DNA of 61,140 nucleotides, taken from NCBI GenBank assembly GCA_001655195.1, contig LPNY01000199.1, positions 25,030 through 86,169 on the forward strand, written 5' to 3'. Each line of letters starts with the position of its first letter. Position 1 is the first letter of the stretch. Source of the stretch: Arcobacter sp. EP1 (GTDB lineage: Bacteria; Campylobacterota; Campylobacteria; Campylobacterales; Arcobacteraceae). Below the pieces are notes generated by a model, which saw nothing but the letters and a program-made list of their open reading frames with translations, did no database searches and was not told the origin of the DNA. Below are positions 49,156 to 55,073 of the stretch, piece after piece. Position numbers and translations under genes: made by a program.

Positions 49156-51635
49156 AACTGCCTATTCGTTTTTGTGGTTGCTTGTGCCTCAAAAGGATTT
49201 TCGGGCCAATAATGTTTTTTGTACTTACCACGAAGCTCTTTTCTAACCTCATCATAACTATTTTCCCAAAAGCTTTTTAAATCATAAGTAATTTGTATGG
49301 GTCTAAGCGCTGGAGTTAAAAGATGCATTTGTAAAGCTACTTTTCCATTACAAATTTTAGGGGTATCATATAAACCAAAAACCTCTTGTATTTTTACAGC
49401 TAAGATAGGACTGTTTTCATTGTTATAATCAATTGCAATATTTGAGCCACTTGGCACTTTGATATGAGTTGGAGCAAGTTTATCTAAACTTTGTTGTGCT
49501 TGCCAATCTAAAAGTGACAAAAGCATATTATAGGTATCTAACTGTTCTAAAGCCTTGACACTTTTAATGTCTGTTAAAAATGGCTCTAACCACAATGCTG
49601 TATTTTCTAAGAGATAGTTTTCATCAAAAGATTCAAAAGAGTCATCCTGCAAACTTACAAAGCAGACTCTATCTTTTAACTGTTGAGCTTTTTTACTCCA
49701 TGTTAAAAGATTTAGTCCTTCGGTCTTTACTAAATTGATTAGAAGGGATTTCATATCTCTATCTTTGATATTTTCAACAGCATGTGACTCTAACTCACAA
49801 TCATAGAAGCAAACCTTTTCTTTGATACTTAATCGGTTATTTGTTTTATCGTAATGAACTTCCTCTTTAGTAACAATATCTTGGGTAAAGTAGTTTTTGA
49901 TTGTTTCAAGAGAAATGGGTATTGCGCTACTAATATAACTATTTTGCTCTTGTGCATGCAAATTCGCTACTACTAACAAAGATGTATTAAAAAGTCTATC
50001 TTCTTTGATTAACAAGGCTCCTTTTCCATTACTTAGTTTATAACTATAATCATTAGATTTTCGCAAAACGGCTAATCTGTCAGGGTAAGCAAAAAGTAAA
50101 AGGCTTGCTACTATTTCAGAAGTAACCTTTTGCTTATTTTCTTTAACTTTTACATAAGATGTTAATCGTTTATAAAAAAACTCTGCTTGTCGATTTACCT
50201 CTTTAAAACGATGGATATTGACGCTACTTGTATCATTCTCATAAACTGCACTAAAACGATGATACAAATTACTATCACTACTGTTAGTAAAAAGATCCTT
50301 TTCACTCAATATTGAAGCTAAAATACACGCCTCTTTTGCAAAACCTAAATCATTTGCCTTTAGTACCATATAAGCTAAACGTGGGTGGATTCCTAATCTA
50401 ATAGCATCTTTACCAAAGGAAGTGATAGTTAAATTTTCATCAATCATATGAAGCTCTTGGAGTAACTCCCAAGCACTATTTAGGACACTACTCTTTGGAG
50501 TATCTAACCAAACTAGCTCATTCCATTGCCTTATCCCCCACAAACCTAGTTGTAATAATACTTCACTTAAATCACTTCGTAATATTTCAGGCTCGCTCTC
50601 TTGATTTAATATCCTTTTTTCATGCCACAAACGATAACAAACTCCTTCTTGTGTTCGTCCTGCCCTACCTGCTCTTTGGGTAGCACTCTGTTGTGAAATA
50701 AACTGCTCTTTTAAATAGTTCATTCCATTGTTTTCGTTATAAAAAGAACTCTTCTGTAAACCGGTATCAATAACGACTCTCACACCTTCAATAGTAACAG
50801 AGGTTTGTGCTATATTAGTACTAAGAATCACTCGCCGTTTAGAACTGGGTAGGAGTGCTCTATCTTGCTCTTTTTTAGAAAGATTTGAATAAAGAGATAA
50901 TACTTCTATATCATCCAAGTTTCCCAATGCTTCAATTATTTGTCGTATGGTTTTTTGACCACTTAAAAAAACAAGGATATCCCCCTGCTCTTTTATTAAA
51001 GCCTCTCTTATTAGTCTAACTGTTTTAGAAACAATATCTTTCAGACTTGGATGTTTTTCATTCTCTTTTAAATAGTGGTAGTGGATAGGATAGGTTCTTC
51101 CTTGTGAAGTTATCACAGGAACTTCCCCTAAAGCATTTAAAAGTTTTTCTTGATGTAATGTTGCTGACATAATAAGCAGTTTTAAATCATCTCTCAAAAG
51201 CTCTTGTACTTGTAGGCATAACGCTAAAGATAAATCAGTATGAATTGAGCGTTCATGAAACTCATCGAAAATGACAAGTGCCACATCATTTAACTCTTGG
51301 TTAGCTTGTAGTTTTCGTACTAATATCGCTTCTGTTACAACTAAGACCTTTGTCTTTTCACAGAAACAAGACTCCATTTTGATTTGATACCCTACACGCT
51401 CCCCTACTTTTTCACCCAAATTTTTAGCCATTTGCTGGGCTACCATACGAGCAGCCACACGTCTGGGTTCTAACATGATTATCATTTTATCTTCAAGCCA
51501 TGGCTCATTTAAAAATGAAATAGGAACTACCGTACTTTTACCTGCACCAGGTGGAGCTTGAAGAATGAGTTGATTATGACTTAATAGAGTTGATTGTATG
51601 TGAGGTAAAACCTCATGAATAGGAAGCTTTTTCAT
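49143..51635 (-). CDS. hrpB: HrpB-type ATP-dependent DEAH-box helicase
   Basis: About 830 aa. Walker A QAPPGAGKST, DEFHER in place of DEAH, motif III SATLHQEKLL, motifs V/VI STNIAQTSVTIEG and SATQRAGRAGRTQEGVCYRLW; the C-terminal HrpB domain ends FWENSYDEVRKELRGKYKKHYWPENP. The role in bacteria is poorly defined. I chose ATG 51635 (MKKLPIHEV) over ATG 51650. Neither has a Shine-Dalgarno; instead TATAAT lies 6 nt before 51635, inside a perfect palindrome. Confidence 0.93.
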   Translation of the reverse strand: MKKLPIHEVLPHIQSTLLSHNQLILQAPPGAGKSTVVPISFLNEPWLEDKMIIMLEPRRVAARMVAQQMAKNLGEKVGERVGYQIKMESCFCEKTKVLVVTEAILVRKLQANQELNDVALVIFDEFHERSIHTDLSLALCLQVQELLRDDLKLLIMSATLHQEKLLNALGEVPVITSQGRTYPIHYHYLKENEKHPSLKDIVSKTVRLIREALIKEQGDILVFLSGQKTIRQIIEALGNLDDIEVLSLYSNLSKKEQDRALLPSSKRRVILSTNIAQTSVTIEGVRVVIDTGLQKSSFYNENNGMNYLKEQFISQQSATQRAGRAGRTQEGVCYRLWHEKRILNQESEPEILRSDLSEVLLQLGLWGIRQWNELVWLDTPKSSVLNSAWELLQELHMIDENLTITSFGKDAIRLGIHPRLAYMVLKANDLGFAKEACILASILSEKDLFTNSSDSNLYHRFSAVYENDTSSVNIHRFKEVNRQAEFFYKRLTSYVKVKENKQKVTSEIVASLLLFAYPDRLAVLRKSNDYSYKLSNGKGALLIKEDRLFNTSLLVVANLHAQEQNSYISSAIPISLETIKNYFTQDIVTKEEVHYDKTNNRLSIKEKVCFYDCELESHAVENIKDRDMKSLLINLVKTEGLNLLTWSKKAQQLKDRVCFVSLQDDSFESFDENYLLENTALWLEPFLTDIKSVKALEQLDTYNMLLSLLDWQAQQSLDKLAPTHIKVPSGSNIAIDYNNENSPILAVKIQEVFGLYDTPKICNGKVALQMHLLTPALRPIQITYDLKSFWENSYDEVRKELRGKYKKHYWPENPFEAQATTKTNRQLKNA

Positions 51636-51660
51636 GTATGCATTATACATGAAAAAGCTT
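51624..51660. promoter_or_regulatory. Perfect 16-bp-arm palindrome over the hrpB start
   Basis: Arms 51624-51639 and 51645-51660 (AAGCTTTTTCATGTAT and its exact complement) flank a 5-nt centre. The structure covers the hrpB ATG (51633-51635) and its TATAAT (complement of 51642-51647). It lies 17 bp after the GNAT stop. No U-run follows on the transcribed strand, so it is unlikely to be a simple terminator; it could be an operator or a translation-blocking hairpin. Confidence 0.7.
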
Positions 51661-52273: not shown

Positions 52274-53296
52274 TTAATCAGACCAACCCATAGATTTTGC
52301 ATATGAGATTAAATTTTTTGGACGATAATTTTTATCTTGTTGCCATCTTGTCTTTACAGAAGAATGCACATTTATAGTGCCTTTCCCATGCTCAACTCTT
52401 CTAAAATATTTTTTCTTAATGCGATAAAAACTTCTTCTCGAGTTATGTATTGTTGCTAAAGGATTTTCATGAAGGGAATCAACTAAATGTTCTTCAATAT
52501 CCAAATTAAACTTTTTGGCTTCAAGTAGCATCCACTTTAAAGCATTATCTGATAATAATCCTTTATCTTTATCTGGGGGATAACTACCTCCAATATCGCT
52601 ATGAGCTCCTACAAACCACATCTGAACTAAATCCATACCAACTTTTTCATCCCAAATTGTTGGTTCAAAGTCACTACGATGTTCATCAATAGCCATTGCA
52701 TGTCTTGCTGTCACAACATTACTACCAATTTTTGTATCATAAAATTCATCATTATCTTCAAATAAACCTAAAAAAGACAAAGGAATTCCCATGGCACCAA
52801 CAGTATCCCACACCCCAACAAACTCTACTTCTCTTGAATTATGTGAAAAACTATCTCTAAATTTAATTGAACCTTCTCCATCAGGGGCGTAAATCTTACC
52901 ACTTTTTTTATAATAACTAAATGCCTTTTCGATTAAAAAAGCATTTTCTCTTTTTAAGATTCCACAGTTATTAATTAAACCACATAAAGATCTAACTGTA
53001 TATGCACCTCGACTAAAACCAAATAAGTATATTTTATCACCAGGTGAATAGTTTTGTACAATATAGCGATAACCATCTGTTATATTTTTTTCAATTCCTC
53101 TGCCAGTAGCTCCACCAATTGCAGAATCATAATAGGAACCTACTCCCCAATCATAAAAAACTTGTTGTTCAACGCCATCTGATGCTTTTGGACTAATTGC
53201 TCTAGCTAACCTTAATACATTCGTAGGAATGTCTTTTTTTAAATCCTTTTCTGGACGATTCCAAGTTCCATCTGAACAAATAACAATACGTTTCAT
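52274..53296 (-). CDS. DUF2235 alpha/beta hydrolase (Tle1-like phospholipase fold)
   Basis: 340 aa. KRIVICSDGTWN opens the domain; the nucleophile elbow is YLFGFSRGAYTVRSLCGLI (GxSxG). VEFVGVWDTVGAMG and MWFVGAHSDIGGSYP carry the remaining family motifs (Asp and His). This family includes type VI secretion phospholipase effectors of the Tle1 type and uncharacterised hydrolases. There is no signal peptide and no VgrG/PAAR partner is in the window. It starts 23 bp after a SLATT-like membrane gene with AAGGA upstream, so the two form an operon. Confidence 0.88.
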   Translation of the reverse strand: MKRIVICSDGTWNRPEKDLKKDIPTNVLRLARAISPKASDGVEQQVFYDWGVGSYYDSAIGGATGRGIEKNITDGYRYIVQNYSPGDKIYLFGFSRGAYTVRSLCGLINNCGILKRENAFLIEKAFSYYKKSGKIYAPDGEGSIKFRDSFSHNSREVEFVGVWDTVGAMGIPLSFLGLFEDNDEFYDTKIGSNVVTARHAMAIDEHRSDFEPTIWDEKVGMDLVQMWFVGAHSDIGGSYPPDKDKGLLSDNALKWMLLEAKKFNLDIEEHLVDSLHENPLATIHNSRRSFYRIKKKYFRRVEHGKGTINVHSSVKTRWQQDKNYRPKNLISYAKSMGWSD

Positions 53297-53319: not shown

Positions 53320-54030
53320 TTAATTACTATTAATTCTATTACTCATAGAATCAACTGTATCTTGAATACCATCATGGTTTAATTCAATTGGTAACTGATT
53401 TGTTTTTTCAACAAAAACGTCTATTTTATGCACAAAAACATTTAACTCAATTACTTTATTATCTTGCCCCTCTTTTGTTACTACATACGATAATATTTTA
53501 TCTTCTAAGCTAAGATAATTTGCATATAGTTTTTTATTAGCTTCAATATTACTTTTTTGGTCAAACAATGTGGGAAAAGCCGAAAAATAGGCGGTTAATC
53601 CTGAAAAAGTCAAAAAAATAGTTATGATATATTTATTTGTATTTTCCCATCCTTTTTTTGAAATAATAAGTAACATTAAAGAAGCAATAATTCCAGTAAT
53701 TGTTGCTAGTGTAATTGCCATATAATATTTAGAATAATAAAAGACCATTATAGTTTGATGTGTTTTTGCTCTATTTCGTACCATATCGAACTGTTCTTCT
53801 AATCTATTTTTCAATTCCATACTCTCATTTTCAAAAGCTGATGAAAAAATAATATCCTTATTGCTTTTAAAACGCTCAATATCACCTTGAAGCCAACTAT
53901 TAGCATTGGTTTGAGCATTTTTATTAAGAAATCTAACTCCTAAACCAAAAACAATAAGAAGTATAAATACAACAACTAATCCTAGTCTTACTATCTCTTT
54001 TGAAAAGAGGCGATTAAAAACATCAAACAT
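53320..54030 (-). CDS. SLATT-like membrane protein, operon partner of the DUF2235 hydrolase
   Basis: 236 aa from ATG 54030, chosen because AAAGGAG lies 5 nt upstream; the open frame continues 41 codons further through the operator and is unlikely to be translated. An N-terminal helix (LGLVVVFILLIVFGLGVRFL) is followed by a cytoplasmic or periplasmic helix, then a YYSKYYMAITLATITGIIAS/ YIITIFLTFSGLTAYFSAFP helix pair and a charged helix (FDQKSNIEANKKLYANYLSL). The two-helix unit plus following amphipathic helix resembles the SLATT effector fold of predicted nucleotide-sensing defence systems. That similarity is by pattern only. Confidence 0.6.
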   Translation of the reverse strand: MFDVFNRLFSKEIVRLGLVVVFILLIVFGLGVRFLNKNAQTNANSWLQGDIERFKSNKDIIFSSAFENESMELKNRLEEQFDMVRNRAKTHQTIMVFYYSKYYMAITLATITGIIASLMLLIISKKGWENTNKYIITIFLTFSGLTAYFSAFPTLFDQKSNIEANKKLYANYLSLEDKILSYVVTKEGQDNKVIELNVFVHKIDVFVEKTNQLPIELNHDGIQDTVDSMSNRINSN

Positions 54031-54060
54031 AATGACTCCTTTTACTAATTGTACAAAAGA

Positions 54061-54126
54061 GCTGTCACAGTTTCTGTCACAAAAAAACTTATTAGATTTT
54101 AATCTTGTGACAGAAACTGTGACAGC
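54061..54126. promoter_or_regulatory. Symmetric 66-bp operator with four TGTCAC sites
   Basis: Two perfect 22-bp inverted arms (54061-54082 and 54105-54126) flank a 22-nt AT-rich centre. Each arm holds CTGTCACA twice, 12 bp apart; TGTCAC is at 54063 and 54075, and its complement at 54107 and 54119. It sits between the divergent SLATT-like and lipoprotein genes, 31 bp and 39 bp from their start codons, so it probably covers both promoters. Confidence 0.8.
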
Positions 54127-54164
54127 AAACCTATAGAATAATAAAAACAACAAAAGGAAGAGCT

Positions 54165-55073
54165 ATGAAAAAATTCTATCTAGGAATAATTGTCTTATTA
54201 TTTTTATTTACTGGTTGTGCAGATAAATTTCATCCTGCATTCACATTTAAAACTGAGAGTGATGTCGAGAATAAAGATTCTCTAGATTTTAAGAAACACT
54301 CAACTAGCCATATTAATGCAAAACTAGGTAGTGTTATTAGACTTAACCTTGATAGTTCTTATATTGCTTCAGATAATGAACATGACGGAACTAAAGAGAT
54401 CGCAAGTGTAGGAAACAGGGAAATACTTGTTTACGCTAAGATTTATAAAAATGGACAGTATGTTCAATACAAAAATCTTGTTAATATAGCAGAACATATG
54501 TGGCTTTTTAACCCAGCTGTTATCAATGATAAAAATATTTTTACAGAAACTATTAATGACTATTATAGAATTGAGCTAAAAATATTTGAAATAGATACAC
54601 CAAGTTTAATTAAAGCCCTTCGTTTTGTAAAAGGTGCAAAGCTAGATGAATTAGGTGGCAAGTATGCGCCAGGAGATAGTTTTATGACAGGTTTTAAAGA
54701 GATTATTATAGGTTTTTTTGATTCTGTAAGCGGATTACTTTCAGGAAGAACAGTTGATGACTTAGTAGCACTGATAGGTTCTGATCCACTATTTGAACAT
54801 TCAATTTATATTAGTCCAGCACAAAACACTTCTTCTATTAAAGGACTTCTTCTTGTAGGTGGAAATGGAAGTGACACAACAACTTATAATATCCAAGAAG
54901 GAACATCAGTTAACAATAGTAATCAAAAAACCTATACTAAAATTAATACTGATTTTTTAAGTACTATTGAAGCTTCCTCAATAAGTAAAGAAGATATTAG
55001 ACAAGGAAAAGTAACAGCTATCAATAAATTTCCTTATCTATTTATAACTGTTGAGGAACTAGTAAAAAAATAG
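54165..55073 (+). CDS. Unrecognised lipoprotein divergent from the DUF2235 operon
   Basis: 302 aa, GGAAG ribosome site. A lipobox LFTGC (Cys at residue 18) predicts lipidation. The body has a beta-rich first half (HINAKLGSVIRLNLDSSYIA, REILVYAKIYKNGQYVQYKN, HMWLFNPAVI) and a middle with GFFDSVSGLLSGRTVDDLVAL. A Ser/Asn/Thr-rich loop (about 240-260) precedes the C-terminal helix. I know no family. The shared operator suggests it works with, or protects against, the hydrolase and membrane protein. Confidence 0.62.
   Translation: MKKFYLGIIVLLFLFTGCADKFHPAFTFKTESDVENKDSLDFKKHSTSHINAKLGSVIRLNLDSSYIASDNEHDGTKEIASVGNREILVYAKIYKNGQYVQYKNLVNIAEHMWLFNPAVINDKNIFTETINDYYRIELKIFEIDTPSLIKALRFVKGAKLDELGGKYAPGDSFMTGFKEIIIGFFDSVSGLLSGRTVDDLVALIGSDPLFEHSIYISPAQNTSSIKGLLLVGGNGSDTTTYNIQEGTSVNNSNQKTYTKINTDFLSTIEASSISKEDIRQGKVTAINKFPYLFITVEELVKK

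Follow-up and report, generated by a model that had tools for sequence, protein, structure and literature searches.

A palindrome of 66 bases (54061–54126) lies between two divergent start codons in the DNA of Arcobacter sp. EP1, an ATG at 54030 on the minus strand and an ATG at 54165 on the plus strand. The locus raises the question of whether the two genes share one symmetric operator or are served by separate promoter elements, and of which protein reads the site. Unless a contig is named, positions refer to the window, i.e., the whole stretch of 61,140 nucleotides that was analysed.

Architecture of the palindrome

The left arm, 54061–54082 (GCTGTCACAGTTTCTGTCACAA), and the right arm, 54105–54126 (TTGTGACAGAAACTGTGACAGC), are exact reverse complements of 22 nt each. 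These coordinates bear out the exact 22-22-22 layout with a repeated TGTCAC that was described in the initial annotation; TGTCAC starts at 54063 and 54075, and TGTGAC at 54106 and 54118, which gives a repeat of 12 bp within each arm. The symmetry had also been judged to lie far above what composition would give by chance, and this agrees with an expectation of 3e-6 exact inverted repeats per window (from base composition, with arms of at least 22 nt and a gap of at most 60 nt) and with a runner-up inverted-repeat arm of 16 nt. The features of the locus are as follows.

54083–54104, no strand: 22-nt A+T-rich centre between the boxes, in which no conserved sequence was recognised
54061–54082, minus strand: box of the minus-strand promoter, reading TTGTGACAGAAACTGTGACAGC on that strand, with TGTGAC half-sites at 54081–54076 and 54069–54064 (site G000:C206:79077-79111:-)
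54048–54053, minus strand: -10 element TACAAT of the minus promoter, 9 nt past the box, following the spacing rule of the other sites
53320–54030, minus strand: 236-aa membrane protein, first gene of the minus unit, weakly similar to SLATT_4 (E 6e-5, which falls short of the curated cut-off)
52274–53296, minus strand: Tle1-like (DUF2235) phospholipase-family protein (PF09994, E 1.4e-83)
54105–54126, plus strand: box of the plus-strand promoter, with TGTGAC half-sites at 54106–54111 and 54118–54123 (site G000:C206:79134-79168:+)
54134–54139, plus strand: -10 element TAGAAT of the plus promoter, 9 nt past the box (TGTGACA)
54165–55073, plus strand: 302-aa predicted lipoprotein

The Tle1-like gene follows the SLATT-like gene after 23 nt and probably belongs to the same transcription unit. 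Assignment of the 302-aa lipoprotein to a known family was rejected, as searches of Pfam, NCBIfam and plasmids gave no match and none of 103 genomes of the family (Arcobacteraceae) has a homologue.

A second inverted repeat in the window, at 51624–51660, has 16-nt arms and a 5-nt loop, and spans the start of a helicase-like ORF at 51650 on the minus strand.

The arm is a directional promoter element

Read towards the gene, the box has the consensus TTGTGAC-N5-CTGTGAC-R, followed by 9 nt and a TANNNT -10 element. A genome-wide search for the half-site pair, which had been proposed as a check on the palindrome, returned many further sites, both in the 3.0-Mb genome of Arcobacter sp. EP1 (G000), where the site list was compiled from pattern searches, and in its relatives. 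With one arm as the query and at most 3 mismatches, 23 places were found in G000 versus 1 for the reversed pattern. Box and -10 together gave 29 places at the same tolerance, both palindrome boxes included, against 2 in the reversed control; a few of the weakest among the 29 may have arisen by chance. A box-only search found 24 exact TGTGAC-N6-TGTGAC occurrences in G000, and 23 of these also appear in the list of sites with TANNNT at the fixed distance. Since the -10 element was not required in this search, the comparison tests the promoter geometry without bias. Over a larger collection of 144 distinct boxes, many of them preselected for a -10 element, TANNNT peaks at one offset in 132.

Most of the G000 sites lie 14–36 nt, counted from the -10 element, upstream of an ORF or start codon in the same direction. 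More than 20 further sites consist of a single arm, gene-ward in nearly all cases, and the flanks of the copies are unrelated to each other. The box occupies the -35 position, and a -35 hexamer is not evident at the box promoters; the box stands in for the -35 element of more than 20 further promoters in G000. The palindrome is made up of two such directional promoter boxes, divergent and back to back, and is not a single symmetric site. Its symmetry comes from setting one consensus box twice, back to back, since single arms are present at many other promoters; no second instance of this arrangement was found in the 104 family genomes.

A perfect box with its -10 element at G000:C38:309438-309472 (L025:1501-1535) has no obvious downstream gene and points antisense into a repressor-like HTH gene; it is possibly the promoter of a small RNA or of an unannotated short gene.

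According to the initial annotation, the 66 bp would form a cooperative operator for both directions. The part of this proposal that stands is that a regulatory site serves both genes by virtue of its position. As one symmetric operator, on both arms of which a cooperative repressor or activator would act to control the two genes together, the palindrome has its exact symmetry to recommend it, as well as inner half-sites separated by about 30–31 bp, close to three helical turns, a distance at which both dimers could share one face of the DNA. We consider this reading improbable given the more than 20 lone boxes at other promoters and a paired form unique in 104 genomes. Consensus boxes are also common in G000, so that a pair of identical arms can be explained without joint selection. 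The two boxes of the palindrome may act cooperatively. The annotation had also held that a palindrome scattered over unrelated sites would mark a mobile repeat. Half of the palindrome is indeed scattered, which a mobile element of the REP or MITE type would explain, but the copies have unrelated flanks and a fixed position relative to the -10 element and start codon, as befits a promoter element. An RNA hairpin or terminator fares no better, as no terminator-like site is present and both predicted start sites fall outside the palindrome, which would therefore not be transcribed from either promoter. On these grounds, the mobile repeat and the hairpin or terminator were rejected as very improbable.

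A response regulator that tracks the box

The regulator had been described as not obviously encoded beside the palindrome, and this is correct: the candidate is an OmpR/PhoB-type response regulator at G000:C38:410688-411350, with Response_reg (PF00072, E 4.6e-22) and Trans_reg_C (PF00486, E 2.5e-13) domains. No other protein in G000 matches it at 1e-40, despite the presence of 38 Trans_reg_C domains in the genome. The exact box with its -10 element is present in 32 of the 104 family genomes, and the reversed-pattern control gave 0 in all 104. Orthologues of the regulator were defined by a cut-off of at least 245 bits, placed by eye where the scores show a gap. On this definition, the box is found in 31 of 47 genomes with the orthologue versus 1 of 57 without it (16 regulator only, 56 neither; Fisher p 1.4e-13, uncorrected for phylogeny). 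The relation holds inside genera, with the sole exception of one genome (G021) in which a single box is present but the regulator orthologue is missing. Several of the 16 regulator genomes without the exact box and -10 element show variants, e.g., TGTGAC-ACCATA-TGTGAC.

The N-acyl synthase described below was rejected as sole marker of the system, being weaker than the regulator in this respect (27/41 versus 5/63). Five box genomes lack the synthase; four of them still carry the regulator, and in two genomes with box and no synthase (G026 and G071) the box lies directly 3' of the regulator gene. From this co-occurrence and the synteny, the box is most likely bound by the G000:C38:410688-411350 regulator.

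The kinase–regulator–synthase cassette

The regulator gene is part of a conserved cassette composed of a 7TMR-DISM/HisKA_2 histidine kinase, the response regulator, the box and a FeeM/LuxI-like N-acyl synthase. The gene order kinase–regulator–synthase is kept in nearly all loci examined, and in most of them the box directly precedes the synthase, as it also does in two Sulfurospirillum genomes. Several loci have degenerate or absent boxes, and the synthase loci L177/L191, L178 and L185 have no recognisable box. The kinase contains 7TMR-DISM_7TM, 7TMR-DISMED2 and HisKA_2 domains; part of the kinase gene in G000 reads N.

The synthase matches the Pfam family FeeM (PF21926) with 76.0 bits (cut-off 27; E 3.7e-21). 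The predicted structure of its orthologue L187 (pLDDT 83.6) has FeeM (PDB code 2g0b) and the AHL synthases BjaI and LasI as best matches in the PDB, and by sequence alone the synthase matches the PDB entry of FeeM weakly (E 0.014). The cassette has the anatomy of an autoinducing signal system, with a putative product and ligand. The literature searched contained nothing relevant on a system of this type in Arcobacter or Campylobacterota.

In many relatives, the synthase is followed by a second OmpR-type regulator, and a box of its own often lies between the two genes (L164–L172, L181, L182). In a Campylobacterales MAG, the synthase is preceded by two boxes in tandem, 35 bp apart (L196:5902-5971).

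Proposed mechanism and alternative readers

We propose, with a probability of roughly 0.7 for the model as a whole, that the box is read by the cassette regulator, and that autoinduction via an acyl signal activates the synthase as well as the scattered genes. The synthase would produce an acylated signal to which the kinase, as the presumed receptor, and the regulator would respond. The phosphorylated regulator would then bind the box as a 12-bp direct repeat at the -35 position and contact RNA polymerase. Activation of the synthase promoter would provide positive feedback and could make the response dependent on population density, and activation of the scattered box promoters would switch on accessory genes, among which defence or conflict domains are frequent in G000. 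At the palindrome, both directions would answer one signal, with the SLATT-like protein and the Tle1-like phospholipase on one side and the lipoprotein on the other.

By analogy with PhoB, the regulator is most likely an activator. A repressor that blocks the -35 region, with the kinase signal either relieving or strengthening repression, would fit a site over -35 equally, and the boxes replace any -35 hexamer. This arrangement appears unlikely, as the 9-nt spacing to the -10 element and the orientation are fixed at 23 of 24 sites, a pattern of activators that contact RNA polymerase, and repressor sites usually vary in position. The spacing argument is not decisive, because Campylobacterota promoters often have no -35 element. 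As to the identity of the reader, the box could instead be recognised by another protein, e.g., L047, a stand-alone winged-helix protein of 101 aa (G000:C38:182943-183146, minus strand). Of the G000 DNA-binding domains compared with that of the regulator, the one in L047 comes closest (48% identity, score 196; next 133), and the promoter of L047 itself contains a weak box with 3 mismatches. No relative of L047 was found in the genome contigs searched, while the box spans many genera and is tracked by the response regulator; L047 was therefore set aside as the main reader, a role in which we give it little credence, and may read the box alongside the regulator or compete with it.

Comparison with known two-component and signal systems

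The cassette regulator, acting from a box at -35, invites comparison with PhoB of Escherichia coli, where the direct-repeat half-sites of the Pho box replace the -35 element about 10 nt upstream of -10, and from which PhoB activates by contacting RNA polymerase. Both systems feature a direct repeat in place of -35 and a regulator with Response_reg and Trans_reg_C domains. The differences are a repeat of 12 bp here versus 11 bp in the Pho box, a different half-site, a regulon that does not consist of phosphate genes, a kinase of the 7TMR-DISM/HisKA_2 type instead of PhoR, and an acyl synthase in the cassette. Orthology of the regulator with PhoB was rejected, given 81.1 bits (E 6.9e-23) with the NCBIfam PhoB model and a cut-off of 296.2.

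DccRS has a promoter motif that is likewise of repeat type, with TTCAC repeats where TGTGAC repeats are found here, and to our knowledge it has no acyl synthase, whereas the present cassette contains one. As for the system described here, DccRS is an OmpR-type two-component system of Campylobacterota, and in Campylobacter jejuni it acts in late stationary phase and controls genes for periplasmic and membrane proteins (PMC9449129).

Similarities to LuxM/AinS with LuxN/AinR, and to LuxI-type quorum sensing, are the AHL-synthase-like GNAT fold and the presence of the presumed site of the regulator at the synthase promoter. In LuxM/LuxN, the signal synthase also lies beside a membrane histidine kinase. 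Unlike in these systems, the synthase here is nearest to FeeM, and the kinase gene adjoins that of an OmpR-type regulator. In the literature searched, a LuxM- or LuxI-type arrangement of this kind has not been described for Campylobacterota. If the model is true, it names the regulator, the likely signal synthase, the sensor and the DNA box of a seemingly undescribed signalling system in this phylum.

Genes led by the box and a possible link to defence

In G000, the box leads genes for one protein each of the SIR2-TPR, AbiZ-like DUF6161, HetE-N and TIR types, for two KAP NTPases and for numerous proteins that fall in no family, as well as two units with Tle1-like phospholipases, one being the window unit behind the weakly SLATT-like membrane protein. 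The box-led genes in relatives encode SIR2, OLD/GajA-like, IetA, LmuA/MBL, SEFIR-NACHT and LRR-Roc proteins, and also many lipoproteins and two AraC-type regulators. Several of the box-led genes resemble phage-defence genes (SIR2, TIR, KAP, AbiZ-like, STAND), as do OLD/GajA, IetA and LmuA among those of relatives. Strong PADLOC matches (E <1e-20) were obtained for 7–8 of 64 box-led proteins versus 0 of 38 controls (p 0.02–0.04), with a small control set and a simple selection rule. The defence content is uneven, and in four genomes (G062, G096, G071 and G026) most genes behind the box encode lipoproteins and membrane proteins of unassigned function. The enrichment is modest and suggestive, and an accessory and variable regulon is better supported than a defence regulon.

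In Vibrio cholerae, a population-density signal raises transcription of the CBASS defence operon via HapR (PMC10653837). This case of quorum control covers a single system in one operon, whereas here a dedicated box stands at many unrelated accessory genes. We tentatively suggest, as a conjecture somewhat short of even odds, that Arcobacteraceae and some Sulfurospirillum use an autoinducing acyl-signal two-component system and its dedicated -35 box to place newly acquired accessory and anti-phage genes, promoter by promoter, under a common population signal, and that a signal-gated immune regulon could thus be built by repeated gain of the box. If true, the model would allow a test of whether bacteria bring many unrelated defence systems under the control of a single population signal, and the exact box would be a simple predictor of new accessory or defence genes in box-bearing genomes.

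Two of the box-led genes in G000, for the KAP NTPase L042 (G000:C76:305443) and the HetE-N/STAND-like protein L035 (G000:C38:70300), each seem to be split into two frames, by a frameshift or an assembly error.
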